Shown here: piece after piece, positions 18,854 to 25,834 of the stretch
Layout: each line of letters opens with the position of its first letter
Position numbering within the stretch: the stretch's first letter is position 1
Source: an uncultured Armatimonadota bacterium
Lineage (GTDB): Bacteria; Armatimonadota; Fimbriimonadia; Fimbriimonadales; Fimbriimonadaceae
Length of the DNA: 64,000 nucleotides
Direction of reading: 5' to 3'
Assembly: GCA_903927345.1 (NCBI GenBank)
Contig: CAIYMO010000053.1
Span: 124,001-188,000, forward strand
Position numbers and translations under genes: made by a program
Notes under the pieces: generated by a model
Database searches by the model: none
Told to the model about the DNA's origin: nothing
Seen by the model: the letters and a program-made list of their open reading frames with translations, nothing else

Positions 18854-19654
18854 ATGTCTATTCGATTGATCGCCATCGACCTTGACGGAACACTGCTGCG
18901 CGCAGACCACACCCCACACCCAAATGTCATCCAGGAACTTAACAACGCGGAAGCTGATGGAATAAGAGTAGTAATCGCTTCAGGCAGATCAATTCAAAGC
19001 ATTAGGAAGGTTCTCTCCGGAATATGGAACATCGACGCGGCAGTCGCCACGAACGGAGCCGATGTTTGGGCATCCGCAAATCAGCCCATCCACCGAGACG
19101 AACTTAACGATGCGGTGAAACGGATGGTAGTCGAGTTTGCGGTCGCAAAAAATCTTCACCTCAGTTGCTATTCAACTGACGGAACCTACGCCCTGCACGA
19201 ATCTGAATATCTAACCGAGTATCGGGAACTCGTTCAAGGACTCCCTGTCGAAATTCGCACTCCCTCGCAAATTCTGGAGATGCCAATCTTTAAACTCGTC
19301 TTCATCCTGGATGCCACCATCCTTCCCGGCCTGCGTGCCGAGATCGAGCCAGAACTGGTCTCTCTTGGAGCAGACTTGACGGAATCTGCCCCTCGATACC
19401 TCGAAATCCTGCCCCAAAACGTTCACAAAGGCTCTGGGCTAACCCATCTCTGTGAGCATCTTGGAATCGCGCAAAATGAAGTCGCCGCGATCGGGGATTA
19501 CCGTAACGATATTGAGATGCTTAAATTTGCTGGTGTATCCGGTGCAGTGGCAAACGCACTACCTGAGATTAAAAGTCTCGCAGACTATACTGTATCTAGC
19601 AATGAAGAAGGCGGAGTCGGTGAGTTCATCGCCCAGTTTGTGCTACAACGATAG
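18854..19654 (+). CDS. HAD superfamily Cof-type phosphatase
   Basis: 266 aa, IIB (Cof) subfamily. Motif I is DLDGTLL (D9 and D11 as nucleophile and acid), motif II is ASGRS, a Lys lies in KGSGLTHLCEHLG, and motif IV is GDYRNDIEMLK. Such enzymes dephosphorylate sugar phosphates or flavin and pyridoxal precursors; the cap domain (about 85-190) decides the substrate, which I cannot infer. AGGA lies before the ATG, and a weak TTTACT hexamer lies 7 nt upstream. The next gene starts 5 nt after its stop, so they may form an operon. Confidence 0.92.
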   Translation: MSIRLIAIDLDGTLLRADHTPHPNVIQELNNAEADGIRVVIASGRSIQSIRKVLSGIWNIDAAVATNGADVWASANQPIHRDELNDAVKRMVVEFAVAKNLHLSCYSTDGTYALHESEYLTEYRELVQGLPVEIRTPSQILEMPIFKLVFILDATILPGLRAEIEPELVSLGADLTESAPRYLEILPQNVHKGSGLTHLCEHLGIAQNEVAAIGDYRNDIEMLKFAGVSGAVANALPEIKSLADYTVSSNEEGGVGEFIAQFVLQR

Positions 19655-19659
19655 GTAGA

Positions 19660-20643
19660 TTGGTGGTTAATGTGAATTATCTTCGACTGCTCTTAGTCCT
19701 ATCTTGCACCCTTCTCGCCTCGCTGGGATTTGGTCAGACAACATTTAATGTCACGACTCCCACAAATGGTGACTGGCTCAACGGAAACAAGACTCTTTCC
19801 TTTAACGGAAAAGGTGCCTCCGTCGAAGTCACCATTGCCGCGACAGTAACAAGCCCGTCGGGATCATCTTCTGTAAGCACCCGCGTCAACCCAACCGTTG
19901 CCGGCGAGTTTAACGGATCGCTCAATTTGACATTCGCAGCCAACGCACCTCAGGGCGACTACACGATTCAGGTCACCGCCACCGAGCCAGGAAAGACCTA
20001 CGCTCCAGTGAACCTTGCTGTTAAGGTCGACACCAAACTGCCAAAGCTTCTCGATTACCGCCCTGCCCAAAACTCCTTCGTCAAGGGCACTGTGCCCATT
20101 CGTTTCAAGCTTCTTGAAGACAACATGAAGGACTGGCGGATCACCGTTGGCGGAAGCGATATTCCGAACAACACTGGTACTGCCACCGACTTCTCCCTCG
20201 ATTGGAATTCAGGCACTCTGGACACCGATGGCCCCCAGAACATTGCCATGACTGCCAAGGACCGCGCAGACAACGCTCTGAACTTCTCAATCCCCGTTAC
20301 GGTCGACCGTCGCGCACCCATTGCAACGATCCAATTCCCGAATGCCTCGACTCCAATCCGATCACGAGCTGATGTCACAGTGATTGTCGACGTGCTCGAC
20401 CAATTCGCAAACGCGGTCGCAATCACCGGCGTCGACGTCATCATCCAGAAGACCGACGGAACATTCGTTACTCGTGTTGCCCGACAATCCTTCACCGAGA
20501 TCGGCAACAACACCTGGCGCTTCACCGGCAAGCTCCGATGGCGCAGCGGCTTCCCTTCCTCCTACAAAGTCATCGCAACCGCGCTGGATAAAGCAGGAAA
20601 CGTCGCGGTGCGACAAGAAGTGTTGGTGCGAGTTAACGGTTAA
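19660..20643 (+). CDS. Secreted protein with Ig-like beta-sandwich domains
   Basis: 327 aa from TTG at 19660; GTG at 19663 or 19672 would also leave the signal peptide (YLRLLLVLSCTLLASLGFGQ) intact. The mature part looks like three tandem Ig-like/bacterial sandwich domains: about 25-125, 125-215 and 215-327. The boundaries are marked by repeated VKVDTKLPKLLDYRPA, VTVDRRAPIATIQFP and ALDKAGNVAVRQEV, forms typical of Big-type repeats. It is likely a cell-surface or periplasmic structural or binding protein. It is followed after 23 nt by an outer-membrane barrel and then by a caspase-fold protein, which suggests a shared envelope role. No catalytic residues stand out. Confidence 0.7.
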   Translation: MVVNVNYLRLLLVLSCTLLASLGFGQTTFNVTTPTNGDWLNGNKTLSFNGKGASVEVTIAATVTSPSGSSSVSTRVNPTVAGEFNGSLNLTFAANAPQGDYTIQVTATEPGKTYAPVNLAVKVDTKLPKLLDYRPAQNSFVKGTVPIRFKLLEDNMKDWRITVGGSDIPNNTGTATDFSLDWNSGTLDTDGPQNIAMTAKDRADNALNFSIPVTVDRRAPIATIQFPNASTPIRSRADVTVIVDVLDQFANAVAITGVDVIIQKTDGTFVTRVARQSFTEIGNNTWRFTGKLRWRSGFPSSYKVIATALDKAGNVAVRQEVLVRVNG

Positions 20644-20666
20644 TTCCGTCCTTACCTCTATTGATC

Positions 20667-21779
20667 ATGAACAAACTTATAATTAGCGGCCTGCTGACAG
20701 GGTCCTTAGCGGCAATTTCTGGGGCCCAGATCCCCGATTTGTTAAACTCCCTAGACGCGGGCGGCCGCTCCCTAGGAGCAGGCGGCGCCTTCGGCGTCAC
20801 CGGTGCCGATACGTTTAGCATCCTCAATAATCCCGCCGGACTGGGATACGTTTCTAGTCGCACCTATGGCTTGGCGTACCGCAACATGCCAACCACCTTT
20901 ACAAGCTTGAGCGGCAACCTCAGTTCCCCATTCACTTCTACCAACGACGATGGGTCCAAGAACCAGTTAAGCCACCTGGGATACGCGATTCCTCTCAAAG
21001 GCGGTCGAACTCTCGGAATCAGCTATCAAGTCGGTGGTTACATCAGCGATTTCCGCGGCGGAGTTGGAATGACTTCCGGAACGCTCACCAACGTCACCTA
21101 CTCCGAGCAGCTCAATGTCAAAACAGATTTCTACACGGTTGCAATCGGCAAGGGCAAAGAAGATGGATCCAGCTCAATCGGCTATGGACTAACTTTTGCA
21201 AACGTCAACTTCCTCAACCGACAGCTAGGATTCATTCCAGGTGGCGCAACCCTAATCGACACCGATAACAAAGCCACCGCATACGGAGTTGGGATTGTTG
21301 CGGGAATCCAGAAGAACAGCGGAGCCGGCTCCTACGGCATCAGCCTGCGAACCCCAATCAAGCTCACCGGAAGCGACGTTGTCAAATCAGCATATGACAC
21401 CGTCCCCGGTCAGCTCTCGCTGGGTCTAGCTCGGCGCACCGACAGCTTCCGAGGTAGCAATAACTACCTTCTCCAGGGCGCACAGGTTACTCACTACTTC
21501 GGAGGATTCGGAAATGGACTCACAACCCGTTCAAACCAAACTGCGTTTGGTCTTGGCGCAGAGTTGGGCATCAGCCGAGAAACCTTTACCCTTCCAATCC
21601 GAGTCGGATACAGCTTCTCACCCGCTGGTGGCGACGCGTTTGCCCGCCGAGATGGTCTCACTTTTGGTGTCGGATACCGACCAAACAGCCAACCGTGGGC
21701 GATTGATCTCAACTATGCCTTTCCAAAAACTGGAGGAAAGGATATAGCTTTCATGTTCAGTTACCGATTTGATAAGTAG
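20667..21779 (+). CDS. PorV/UPF0164-like outer-membrane beta-barrel protein
   Basis: 370 aa from the ATG at 20667; an in-frame TTG two codons earlier is less likely. After a signal peptide (about 1-20) comes AGGRSLGAGGAFGVTGADTFSILNNPAGLG, the opening seen in PorV, UPF0164 and related FadL-like barrels. The rest alternates short amphipathic strands with Gly-rich turns and ends in MFSYRFDK, with aromatic residues near the C-terminus as barrels have. PorV-type proteins act as outer-membrane shuttles or channels; here the role is open. The next gene begins 4 nt after its stop. It is part of the envelope cluster at 19.7-23.1 kb. Confidence 0.75.
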   Translation: MNKLIISGLLTGSLAAISGAQIPDLLNSLDAGGRSLGAGGAFGVTGADTFSILNNPAGLGYVSSRTYGLAYRNMPTTFTSLSGNLSSPFTSTNDDGSKNQLSHLGYAIPLKGGRTLGISYQVGGYISDFRGGVGMTSGTLTNVTYSEQLNVKTDFYTVAIGKGKEDGSSSIGYGLTFANVNFLNRQLGFIPGGATLIDTDNKATAYGVGIVAGIQKNSGAGSYGISLRTPIKLTGSDVVKSAYDTVPGQLSLGLARRTDSFRGSNNYLLQGAQVTHYFGGFGNGLTTRSNQTAFGLGAELGISRETFTLPIRVGYSFSPAGGDAFARRDGLTFGVGYRPNSQPWAIDLNYAFPKTGGKDIAFMFSYRFDK

Positions 21780-21783
21780 GATT

Positions 21784-23106
21784 ATGCGGATGCGACTTTT
21801 ATTGACGGGCATTTTTGGGCTAGCTTTGCTCACCACAGCGATGGGGCAGGCTTGGACGACGGCGTATGACGCTGGTCTAAAAGCGGCTAAATCAGGTGAC
21901 TGGAGTTCCGCTCGAAAGGAATTCCAAAAGGCGCGAGCAAACCGCCCTGATGACGTTTCTGGGCCAACCAATTTGCCAGGACCTGTCACCGAAGCCCGAA
22001 AGTGGCGCGGCGGCGCTCCATACTCTCCGAACTTCCTTTCGGCCTATGCATCGTTCAAGCTCGGTCAAACGGCAAAGGGGGATGCTTCTTCAACATTCTT
22101 CAAGACCGCCCAAGACGAGTTCGAAGGACTCCTCAAAAAGAACCAGGTCAGTAAAGAGTCCTTGTACTTCCTCGCAGCGATTTACTCACGAGCAAATCAG
22201 ACCGACAAGCTTCAAGACCTCGCAAAGAGGTCTCAAAAGGCGAACTGGAAAGTAGATGGCGAACTCCTAGCTCCTGAAGAGGTCGCAGCAATGGCCCAAA
22301 GCATGACCCCCACCGGTAACAACCAGGGAGTCGTTGCGGTTGTCGACGCTTCAAACATGAGCGGCGTGACGCCAACCATGCCAATCAAAGCAGGTCCAGT
22401 CCCCGTCAATCCTAAGAAGTTTGCTCTCATCATCGCCAACGGCGATAACAAGCTTGCAGGCTTCCAAGTAAGCCACGCGGCAAACGACGCTAAGTTGCTT
22501 CGTGATGCGATCACATCGAATGCGGGATACGACACGGCAAACGTCGAAGTCGTCCTGAACGCCAGCGCTGCTCAAATCAAGGCCGCCGCAAGCGCGCTCG
22601 CCGCAAAGATGCCGACTGAGTCCACGTTGCTATTCTTCTTCACCGGAGCCGGCGCGAACATTGATAACCGAGACTGGCTCGCCGGAACTGACACCCAACT
22701 CGCGACAGATACGTCAGCTATGATCGCCAAGACGGAGATCTATCGCCCATTCGTCGAGAAAGGGATTTCAATCTTCGCCTTCTACCAAGTGTCGCGATCC
22801 GCAATCGGAGGACGATTCTTTGGTAGCGAAGAGCCCAAAGCAGGTCGAGTCTCCCAAATGCAGTCGACGACCCCCGGTGAGACGATCTACTCCATCTTCA
22901 AAGACGGAAGCAATGTCGGAATCTTTGCCTCTGCAATGAGCGACGTCTTCTCTGAGCTTCACTCCAACGCAATTCCAATCACGGAGTTCGGTTGGCAGGT
23001 CTTCTACAAGATCCGACGAGGTCAAACCGGTTCATCTGGTGGTGGCTCACGACAGACGCCAACACTTCCTGTGTTGCAGCTTCTCGCTTCTGACTCGCGG
23101 TTCTAA
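21784..23106 (+). CDS. Secreted TPR protein with inactivated caspase-like (C14) domain
   Basis: 440 aa from the ATG at 21784; an upstream TTG is possible. A signal peptide (about 1-21) is followed by TPR-like helices (about 25-165), a Thr/Val-rich linker, and from residue 213 a caspase-fold domain. That domain opens KFALIIANGDNK, then HAANDAKLLRDAI as in bacterial metacaspase-like proteins. The catalytic His motif (normally F-S-G-H-G) reads FFFTGAGAN with Ala at 289, and the Cys motif (normally D-A-C-x-S) reads YQVSRSA, with Ser337 or Val336 where Cys should be. Peptidase activity is therefore unlikely, and a binding or scaffold role is inferred. It follows the PorV-like barrel by 4 nt. Confidence 0.7.
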   Translation: MRMRLLLTGIFGLALLTTAMGQAWTTAYDAGLKAAKSGDWSSARKEFQKARANRPDDVSGPTNLPGPVTEARKWRGGAPYSPNFLSAYASFKLGQTAKGDASSTFFKTAQDEFEGLLKKNQVSKESLYFLAAIYSRANQTDKLQDLAKRSQKANWKVDGELLAPEEVAAMAQSMTPTGNNQGVVAVVDASNMSGVTPTMPIKAGPVPVNPKKFALIIANGDNKLAGFQVSHAANDAKLLRDAITSNAGYDTANVEVVLNASAAQIKAAASALAAKMPTESTLLFFFTGAGANIDNRDWLAGTDTQLATDTSAMIAKTEIYRPFVEKGISIFAFYQVSRSAIGGRFFGSEEPKAGRVSQMQSTTPGETIYSIFKDGSNVGIFASAMSDVFSELHSNAIPITEFGWQVFYKIRRGQTGSSGGGSRQTPTLPVLQLLASDSRF

Positions 23107-23131: not shown

Positions 23132-23992
23132 TTAGGCCAGGTCGAATCCCATCTCTTTGAGGATTCTTTCGACCTGGTCTTCGTCAAACCGGTCCATCTG
23201 CCGCGCGCGTTCGACCTCAAGCTCAGCCTCGGCATCCTGCCCAGTGGCTCGAAGCAACTCCTCCAAAAGCCCGTGATAGACGTGCTTCTCCGGCTCCAAA
23301 TCGCTCGCTAGCCGAACCGCCTTAATGGACTCGACCTTCATGTCCGAAAGCCAAAAGACTACTGCACATCGCAGGTAAAGGAAGTCATCGCCAGGCGACA
23401 GCTCAACCGCCGCACGGAGCGACTGCAAAGCCTCTGGATACTGCTTCAGCTGAGTCAGTAGGTCACCGACCCAGTAGTGCAGGTAAGAGTCATCGGGCTT
23501 GGCAACCACAGCGTTCACCGCGTACTCCATCGCTCGCATCGGGAAGCCTGAAGTCCGAAGTGCCTCCGAGATTTTCAAGTTGAAGTACGGATTAGCCGGC
23601 TCTGCTTCAAGGGCCTTCTCCAGTTCCATGATCGCCTCGCTCGTCCGACCATGTCGTTTCAAAAGGTCAGCAAGGCCAACGTGCGGTTCCGTAACATCAG
23701 ATTTGATCGCAAGTGCCTTGACGTACTGGCGATAGGCCGCAGAAAACTGGTCGGTCGCCTCAAGCGCACCCGCAAGGTCGATCCGGCTCTTAACATCGCT
23801 CGGATCACTCTGCTCAACCGCCTTCTGAAAGTGTGCGATTGCTTCGGCATACTTCCCAGCGTCCAAGCTCATACGACCAAGTTGTTCGCTTTCCTCGGCG
23901 TTATTGCCAAACTTGCTCGGACCTTGTGAGTCGCTGTGATCGAGTGTGATTGCACCGAATAGATCGGCGATTGCGTTGACGTTTGCGTCCAT
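23132..23992 (-). CDS. TPR repeat protein
   Basis: 286 aa, soluble, no signal peptide. Five or six tetratricopeptide repeats cover about 35-260, with clear helix pairs such as GKYAEAIAHFQKAVEQSDP, GRTSEAIMELEKALEAEPAN and KQYPEALQSLRAAVELSPGD. TPR arrays bind other proteins; the partner is unknown. It begins 3 nt after the large secreted protein at 23996 and is likely co-transcribed with it. The C-terminus contains RFDEDQVERILKEMGFDLA, an acidic helical tail. Confidence 0.85.
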   Translation of the reverse strand: MDANVNAIADLFGAITLDHSDSQGPSKFGNNAEESEQLGRMSLDAGKYAEAIAHFQKAVEQSDPSDVKSRIDLAGALEATDQFSAAYRQYVKALAIKSDVTEPHVGLADLLKRHGRTSEAIMELEKALEAEPANPYFNLKISEALRTSGFPMRAMEYAVNAVVAKPDDSYLHYWVGDLLTQLKQYPEALQSLRAAVELSPGDDFLYLRCAVVFWLSDMKVESIKAVRLASDLEPEKHVYHGLLEELLRATGQDAEAELEVERARQMDRFDEDQVERILKEMGFDLA

Positions 23993-23995
23993 AAC

Positions 23996-25834
23996 TTATT
24001 TGCTTCGACTAATGTCGATGACTCCAGCAGTCGCATCTGAACCCGCCACCCGGGCGAACAATGTCGCCGGATAACTTGAACCAGAGAGAGGAATCGTTGT
24101 GATTCGAAATTTCTTAACGGCCCCCGGCGCGAGTTTATAAATCGCGATCCGAGCCTGCTTCTTCGGCAGCAACTTCGGTGTCATGAGATAAACATCATCG
24201 ATGAAGAACAATCCCCCTGAGTAGCCCGCGCTCGTCTCAAAGGCAATTTCGACATTGACCGTTTCCTCTGTCGGGTTTGAAAGGGTTGTTTCCAGATTAA
24301 CCGTCACACCAAAGTTGCCGTCAAGTCGCCCTGCATTGTCCTGCCGCTCAATCGACTTTTGACCGAGTCGGAAGACACCCATGCGTCCACCCACTTTGTA
24401 CTCCCACGCCTCAGACCGAATCGGATCAGGATAAATGTGGTCAGACAGCGTGTACGATGACTTGTCCCACTCATTGAGGGGTTGTGCCCCCACTTCACGC
24501 CAAGGAGTAGAACTCGACAACGCCGGCTTCCACTTGGCAATCACCTCATACGGAGGAAACGCGTCGGCGCGAACAATGATCCGCTCTGGTCCTTCGATGA
24601 GCCGGATTGCCGCCAACCCACTGATAACCGCCTGAGGAGCAAGTCTTCGGAAGGAGATCGGGCACGTCGAATGCGGAGGGAGAACAACGATTTCGGCGCT
24701 CGCAGTGCGAATCGCTCGCATAAACAGATCCCCAGCGCGCATCCCAGCGCCAACTGGGTCAAAATCCGGCGCCGAGTCGCCAGGAGTAATTGCGATCTTC
24801 GCTGGCTTATCCGAATCGTTGACAATCTGGGATCGAAGGATCAGCGGAGCGGCGGAATCATTGATATGGTGATACAGGAACCGGGCCGAGCTCCCAAGTG
24901 CCAATGAAGCCCCAAAGAGATTCCCTGGCTTCTCAACGCGCTCTGGATCATTGCAATACCAAAGCACGTCCTCGTCCTGAGGAACCAGCGTGATATTCGA
25001 AACCTTGACCGACACCGTTCCGGTTCGAGCGACCGTGTCGGGAGCCGTGATATTGACTTTTACAGGCACGGTAACCGTGAGCCCAGCACCCAAGGCAGGA
25101 ACGTTATCTGCTGTCCACTCCAGCTTTGCAAGCGGAGAAAACTTTGTTTGCTGCTTCAAGGCCGCTTCGATCGCGCCCCGAACAGTTCCAGAAATCGCCG
25201 GTCGCCCGGTAACTTCGGCTTCATAAGAATCGGGAAGCTTTGCCGCCGTCATCCGGCAAACGAAGTTCACTTGCCGAACGGATGAACCGTTATTGATGGT
25301 GACAAATCCAGAGCCAGGTCGCAGCGCAGTCGCAGAGTAGCTCGAACCAGATTTACTGATCGACAGGAATCGGTCGTCCGATGAGGTCACACGCACGCTC
25401 ATTGGAATAGTTAAGGTCGTACTGTCCCCAACAGCCAGCCGAATCTCACTCTGAGCGGGACCTGCAGATCGTTTGGCCTCGATCAAAGACCGCTGCAATT
25501 CGCCAGCCCATCGGTAAGCAAGCGTCCGGCGACTGATTCCTCTTGCCGAAGCTTCAGCACGAGTAACCGTCAGAACAGTTTGCGGCCCAACTTTGACAAC
25601 AAAATCCGAGCCCATGGGCCGAACAACAACCTTCCCAGAAGACCGAGAAAGCTTTGATGCCGCCTTTGAGGCAAGAAGCTCGGGAGATACTCCATTCGAA
25701 GCAGCTCTAAACGTTAAAACCTGCTCGCCATTGATGTAAATCGAGCTTCCAGAGGCTGAGACAGTCCGAGCCAAGCCAGTCACAACTAGCCCGACGCACA
25801 ACAAAACTCCCGCAATCTTAGAAAACAATCTCAC
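23996..25834 (-). CDS. Large secreted protein with pilus-N-like domain
   Basis: 612 aa, starting at GTG 25834. The signal peptide is about residues 1-27. The N-terminal region (30-130) has an SPELLASKAASKL...TLTVTRAEASARG pattern with a following RWAGELQRSL helix. Residues about 135-200 (RLAVGDSTTLTI, then FLSISKSGSSYSATALRPGSGFVTI) resemble the N-terminal beta-domain of pilus secretin-associated proteins. The rest is a series of beta-sandwich-like segments, one containing GLFFIDDVYL. I do not recognise the full architecture. It is probably periplasmic or surface-exposed and is paired with the TPR gene that follows. It is divergent from the NatAB exporter, with 75 nt between them. Confidence 0.6.
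   Translation of the reverse strand: MRLFSKIAGVLLCVGLVVTGLARTVSASGSSIYINGEQVLTFRAASNGVSPELLASKAASKLSRSSGKVVVRPMGSDFVVKVGPQTVLTVTRAEASARGISRRTLAYRWAGELQRSLIEAKRSAGPAQSEIRLAVGDSTTLTIPMSVRVTSSDDRFLSISKSGSSYSATALRPGSGFVTINNGSSVRQVNFVCRMTAAKLPDSYEAEVTGRPAISGTVRGAIEAALKQQTKFSPLAKLEWTADNVPALGAGLTVTVPVKVNITAPDTVARTGTVSVKVSNITLVPQDEDVLWYCNDPERVEKPGNLFGASLALGSSARFLYHHINDSAAPLILRSQIVNDSDKPAKIAITPGDSAPDFDPVGAGMRAGDLFMRAIRTASAEIVVLPPHSTCPISFRRLAPQAVISGLAAIRLIEGPERIIVRADAFPPYEVIAKWKPALSSSTPWREVGAQPLNEWDKSSYTLSDHIYPDPIRSEAWEYKVGGRMGVFRLGQKSIERQDNAGRLDGNFGVTVNLETTLSNPTEETVNVEIAFETSAGYSGGLFFIDDVYLMTPKLLPKKQARIAIYKLAPGAVKKFRITTIPLSGSSYPATLFARVAGSDATAGVIDISRSK

Follow-up and report, generated by a model that had tools for sequence, protein, structure and literature searches.

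An Ig-barrel-caspase operon of Fimbriimonadales in which the predicted caspase fold is conserved without its catalytic dyad

The locus

The window, a stretch of 64,000 nucleotides from an uncultured Armatimonadota bacterium, contains a trio of closely spaced genes on the forward strand. These had originally been predicted to encode an Ig-like secreted protein, an outer-membrane barrel of PorV type and a secreted TPR protein with a caspase-like domain, at distances of 4-23 nt, and the open reading frames were located exactly as claimed, with gaps of 23 nt between the Ig and barrel genes and 4 nt between the barrel and caspase genes. The first gene (19663..20643, starting at GTG 19663 or TTG 19660) encodes an exported Ig-like protein of about 326 residues and of Big_13 type. 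It is followed by the gene for a 370-residue, predicted 14-strand outer-membrane barrel of PorV/FadL type (20667..21779, ATG 20667), which has an N-terminal NPA motif (N55-P56-A57), and by the gene for an exported helical-repeat protein of 440 residues with a C-terminal pseudocaspase domain (21784..23106, ATG 21784). By eye, all three N-termini carry Sec-like signal peptides without a lipobox, and a simple heuristic gives the same result in nearly all homologs. The Ig-like protein matches PF19077 (Big_13) above the Pfam cut-off, with an E-value of 8e-7, which together with its Sec-like N-terminus bears out the first part of the prediction.

A HAD-family hydrolase gene (18854..19654, forward strand) lies directly upstream and is a conserved neighbour. 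On the other strand, positions 23132-25834 hold a TPR gene (23132-23992) and a gene for a 612-residue protein without a Pfam family above cut-off (23996-25834). These two were considered as conserved partners and rejected, since only the two closest relatives have them beside the trio. A scan of the locus for promoters and terminators gave no more than is expected by chance.

Results and discussion

We begin with the third protein, which matches PF00656 over residues 216-396 at 33.3 bits, against a cut-off of 21.4. In the AlphaFold2 model, calculated from an alignment of family members only, the individual domains are well predicted but their relative placement is not (pLDDT 86.4, pTM 0.58). 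The C-terminal domain (residues 210-440, 22411..23103) is predicted to adopt a caspase (C14) fold, and it superposes on the MALT1 paracaspase with a Z-score of 23.3 and 2.9 Å over 210 residues; Foldseek concurs on a MALT1-like fold (E 1.3e-9). A single-sequence search of the PDB with this protein found nothing, whereas the family profile succeeded and found MALT1 and metacaspases (E 1.6e-6). The structural check proposed in the original prediction thus came out in favour of the caspase fold. The N-terminal half forms paired helices in the model, although its sequence matches TPR models weakly (best E 0.016).

This helical N-domain carries a WRxGxPYSPNF motif. Its most conserved stretch, residues 71-88 (ARKWRGGAPYSPNFLSAY, 21994..22047, forward strand), has a Y-x-P-x-[LF]-x3-Y core that is also found in the long forms with an active dyad that are described below. 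At the other end of the protein, the terminal Phe is almost invariant (77 of 79 homologs; SRF in the window, 23092-23103, and mostly ARF elsewhere), and resembles the end of a beta-signal, though the caspase protein is no barrel.

The catalytic residues themselves are gone. In the profile alignment to MALT1, Ala289 and Ser337 occupy precisely the places of the catalytic His and Cys: the former His motif reads GAG instead of GHG (residues 288-290, 22645..22653), and the former Cys motif, QVSRS (residues 335-339, 22786..22800), aligns with DMCRK of MALT1. What had been proposed for one protein, a fold retained with its catalytic residues lost, holds for its relatives as well. Among the 78 alignable homologs, none has His at the first position, where V, A, Q, P, S, T, N or others are found, and none has Cys at the second, which is occupied by N, S, D, H, P and others, including A, R and G. 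Gly288 and Arg338, on the other hand, are present in all 78, and Phe346, Gly347 and Gly354 vary hardly or not at all. A search for an intact dyad hidden elsewhere in the protein revealed no His or Cys column conserved across the family.

The loss is specific to this caspase family, because the other four C14-domain proteins of the same genome retain GHG and D-A/S-C. It is also accompanied by strong constraint. Synonymous sites are near saturation, and only dN was therefore compared; when the window is set against its two nearest relatives, the dN of the caspase domain is 0.077 and 0.092, as low as that of CheA (0.094 and 0.102). The low dN combined with the absence of the dyad shows that the fold is maintained by strong selection without catalysis. 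Judged by its residues, the protein is a caspase fold and not a peptidase, and it corresponds to a bacterial pseudo-orthocaspase, that is, a p20 fold in which the dyad is replaced.

A single-sequence search found the caspase protein in 83 of 291 Armatimonadota genomes, nearly all from one order, Fimbriimonadales (about 80 genomes); the named relatives that carry it are Fimbriimonas and Fimbriimonadaceae MAGs. In the sample of 80 loci used for gene order, the arrangement Ig-barrel-caspase on one strand was found in 70, with median gaps of 36 and 8.5 nt; the comparison of gene order in related genomes, which the original prediction had proposed as a check, thus came out positive. Seven of the other ten loci are cut by a nearby contig end, while three (L076, L102 and L136) truly have neither the Ig nor the barrel gene. 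At L112, a close relative of L102, the 2.2 kb upstream are present and the HAD gene directly adjoins the caspase gene. An apparent barrel-caspase fusion at L070 and L144, with a frame of 842-858 residues, was discarded as a MAG assembly artefact, as it involves a run of N (L144:5972-5990).

It is important to realize that this order is conserved in part because the whole region is syntenic. In many loci the wider neighbourhood is the same, with a divergent HDOD-CheA-CheW group, the HAD gene upstream and a convergent CoaX-GlmM-GrpE group downstream, and the order by itself is therefore no proof of a module. The pattern of clean losses is stronger evidence. In four genomes (G014, G015, G017 and G098) the HAD gene directly adjoins CoaX-GlmM-GrpE, and the module has been cleanly lost several times. 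Among the 113 genomes of the order, 76 have both barrel and caspase, 5 have the caspase only, one has the barrel only (at a contig end) and 31 have neither (Fisher 2e-21, a value not corrected for phylogeny). The HAD hydrolase is retained where the trio is lost and thus probably lies outside the module. Losses in several near-complete genomes mean that the module is not essential. Furthermore, a few genomes (G008, G100 and G123/G124) keep the caspase protein without the Ig protein and the barrel, which shows that it is not strictly dependent on them and counts against a tight obligate complex.

Some further observations concern the genomic context. In 43 of the 80 loci (e.g. L064:8554-9411) the caspase gene is followed on its own strand by a conserved fourth gene, for a protein of about 285-300 residues with a GxGPK (HhH-like) motif; it is not beside the trio in the window, and it is still present in G149, where the trio is gone. 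In the genus of the window, five species with large genomes (4.9-6.5 Mb; G001, G012, G014, G015 and G017) have neither the trio nor flagellin. A flagellar role was considered and rejected: the trio is present in G002, G003 and G010, which have no flagellin (as is a lone caspase gene in G123), and it is missing from family f3, G098, G132 and G148, all of them flagellated. The trio and flagella thus each occur without the other, and neither requires the other. A role in phage defence was likewise discarded, as PADLOC gave only a weak generic caspase match of 19.6 bits.

Outside Fimbriimonadales the operon exists in another form. With the barrel and Ig family profiles, distant members were found in family f12 of the phylum. 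In two of its genomes (G050 and G054), the gene for a multi-Ig protein of 1241 or 1168 residues is followed by the barrel gene and then by that for a protein of 1377 or 1519 residues with a C-terminal PF00656 domain; in a third (G053) the long-form trio lies in pieces on three contigs. In all three genomes, GHG and DACR are intact. The N-domains of the short and long caspase proteins are related (hhalign E 5e-6), and multi-Ig homologs outside Fimbriimonadales range from 1168 to 1303 residues. One genome within Fimbriimonadales, G177, combines the short-form trio with another barrel, after which comes a TPR-like protein of the long form (L185:2097-6774, C151); the contig ends before a caspase domain is reached.

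Caspases in general carry the His-Cys dyad, and the short form is for this reason most simply seen as a derived pseudo-enzyme. Homologs with an intact dyad at the canonical positions, in the same operon order, support derivation from an active form. The original prediction had regarded homologs with an intact dyad elsewhere in the protein as evidence against it; none of that kind was found, and the intact dyads that do occur, in the other family, point to the origin of the short form. The order-wide short form is thus probably a derived pseudo-enzyme, and the direction of change would be from an active long form to a dead short one. Since the long form is seen in one family only, the operon may have been transferred horizontally. 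The other PorV-like barrels of the phylum (L186-L236) have no adjoining caspase gene by the family profile, a weak negative because long-form caspases escape this profile as well.

The Ig protein and the barrel appear to be the tightest pair of the trio, and a pair in yet another family (G211; L184 = C509 and L181 = C662) suggests the same. There, a multi-Ig protein of about 1300 residues is followed by a PorV-like barrel with no recognised adjoining caspase gene; one of the two copies has a sulfatase next.

The barrel is central to any functional interpretation. It matches NF033709 (PorV_fam) with an E-value of 1.4e-10 and 41.3 bits, which does not reach the curated cut-off (90 bits). The same model is matched at E <= 0.001 by 34 of 35 homologs, and NF052325 (PorV2) by 8. 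There is no Pfam match, and a single-sequence PDB search gave chance matches only. The AlphaFold2 model, again from family members only, has 14 strands (pLDDT 85.9, pTM 0.84), with strands 1-6 of 19-24 residues and strands 7-14 of 8-13. The closest solved structure is FadL (Z 33.2, 2.8 Å over 321 residues); BamG gives Z 28.6, BamG-type barrels as a group Z 28-29 at about 3 Å over 320 residues, and PorV Z 26.6. In the NPA hatch motif, N55-P56 is invariant in the family and A57 nearly so. With its predicted 14 strands, N-terminal hatch and NPA motif, the protein can be placed in the FadL superfamily, and by sequence it is related to PorV/PorQ yet under the family cut-off. The original assignment to the PorV type is accordingly kept as a relationship, but the similarity to FadL and BamG is at least as great.

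The interpretation that we favour, with somewhat less than even confidence, is one of envelope assembly. All three proteins would be exported by Sec, and the FadL/PorV-type barrel would sit in the outer membrane and hold the Ig protein at the cell surface, as is the case for the surface partners of PorV, PorP/SprF and BamG in Bacteroidota. The pseudocaspase protein would be a non-proteolytic scaffold, its helical N-domain and pseudocaspase domain serving to bind one of the two partners, barrel or Ig protein, or some other ligand in the envelope. The short-form operon would descend from one with an intact-dyad caspase, which survives in another family of the phylum. The topology, including the surface location of the Ig protein, the formation of a complex and the scaffold function are what we infer from these elements. 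The genome yielded no translocon that could take the Ig protein through the outer membrane; SprA (PF14349) has no match there, and none in the control genomes either.

The similarity of the barrel to the FadL fold fits a transporter equally well. In an uptake module of FadL type, the barrel would import a hydrophobic or other small molecule, with the Ig and pseudocaspase proteins as ligand-binding partners in the periplasm or at the surface. FadL being the closest solved structure and the conserved NPA hatch speak for this. We nevertheless consider it unlikely, because the sequence models favour PorV/PorQ over FadL/TodX, the barrel being without a Pfam match, and because FadL transporters are not usually encoded in an operon with an Ig protein and a caspase fold.

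Another option is an accessory of outer-membrane assembly akin to BAM, where the barrel would be a pillar for an extracellular partner that inserts or displays surface proteins. The structural matches to BamG-type barrels agree with this, as BamG is itself a barrel of the FadL family onto which a surface protein docks (PMC12611786). The module is, however, missing from several near-complete members of the genus and so not essential, and we regard this option as quite unlikely.

A divergent, stripped type IX attachment complex, with the caspase fold in the place of PorU, is very doubtful. A PorV-family barrel does stand beside a clan CD fold, and PorU and PorV are known to form a complex (PMC5562754), but the sequence matches of the third protein are to C14 only. 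C25 is not among the structural matches listed, though a resemblance to it may lie beyond them. In addition, no NCBIfam model of the T9SS C-terminal sorting signal matched the Ig protein, the barrel scores under the curated cut-off, and SprA gave no match, in a search that is also silent in the control genomes. Membership of the trio in type IX secretion is thus not supported, in line with the original prediction, which had set the trio apart from that system by sequence. Finally, an unusual residual activity by Ser or Asn with Arg at the former Cys site is scarcely credible: Arg338 is invariant and N, S, D or H are common at position 337, but this position also accommodates P, A, R and G, and the residues at the His position (V, A, Q, P, S and so on) offer no general base.

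Going beyond the envelope-assembly reading, we tentatively suggest that the trio could represent an undescribed Armatimonadota system for outer-membrane display or assembly, built from an Ig-repeat protein, a FadL/PorV barrel and a caspase fold. Its long form would be catalytic, a processing enzyme or sortase, and its non-catalytic short form would have spread through Fimbriimonadales, giving an analogue of PorU-PorV with C14 for C25.

Comparison with known systems

In the open-licence literature we found no description of an Ig-barrel-caspase operon, nor of a pseudo-orthocaspase in an operon with an outer-membrane barrel. Also new here is the occurrence of the Ig-barrel-caspase operon with an intact dyad in three genomes of a distant Armatimonadota family. 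The same operon, with an active-dyad long form in one family and a constrained dead-dyad short form across an order, offers a natural series for the conversion of a protease into a non-enzymatic part, here apparently a part of an undescribed cell-envelope module. A FadL/PorV barrel next to a caspase-like fold is familiar from type IX secretion, and the results also suggest that such a pairing may have evolved independently in bacteria other than Bacteroidota, an idea that can be tested with three small genes.

Four known systems are instructive in this respect. In the PorU-PorV-PorQ-PorZ complex, PorV tethers the PorU sortase and cargo at the surface, so that surface proteins are delivered and anchored (PMC5562754), as we propose for the trio. 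Both have a FadL-superfamily barrel related to NF033709 with a clan CD protease fold alongside. PorU, however, is a C25 sortase, whereas the domain of the trio is C14 without the dyad, no C-terminal sorting signal was matched in the trio and its barrel scores below the family cut-off.

The PorP/SprF barrels work with adjacently encoded adhesins, and in some cases PorE belongs to the operon as well (PMC12618676). The type B adhesin-PorP/SprF-PorE operon of Flavobacterium shares with the trio the logic of three genes, a putative adhesin, its cognate barrel and a third envelope protein (PMC12618676). It differs in that the barrel belongs to another family, PorE takes the place of the pseudocaspase and the system depends on T9SS.

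BamG is a FadL-family barrel of 14 strands, whose extended strands 3-7 dock an extracellular protein (PMC12611786); in the model of the trio barrel it is strands 1-6 that are long. While BamG binds BamA and is essential (PMC12611786), several genomes do without the trio barrel, which is encoded in an operon of its own.

The pseudo-orthocaspases, lastly, are mainly cyanobacterial and alphaproteobacterial, typically have Tyr-Ser in place of the dyad and have been linked by their authors to photosynthesis (PMC6426788). They share with the caspase protein the p20 fold and the replaced His-Cys dyad. In the trio, by contrast, V/A and N/S/D/H mostly stand in for the dyad residues, the Arg that follows is invariant, and the protein is exported and encoded together with a barrel.
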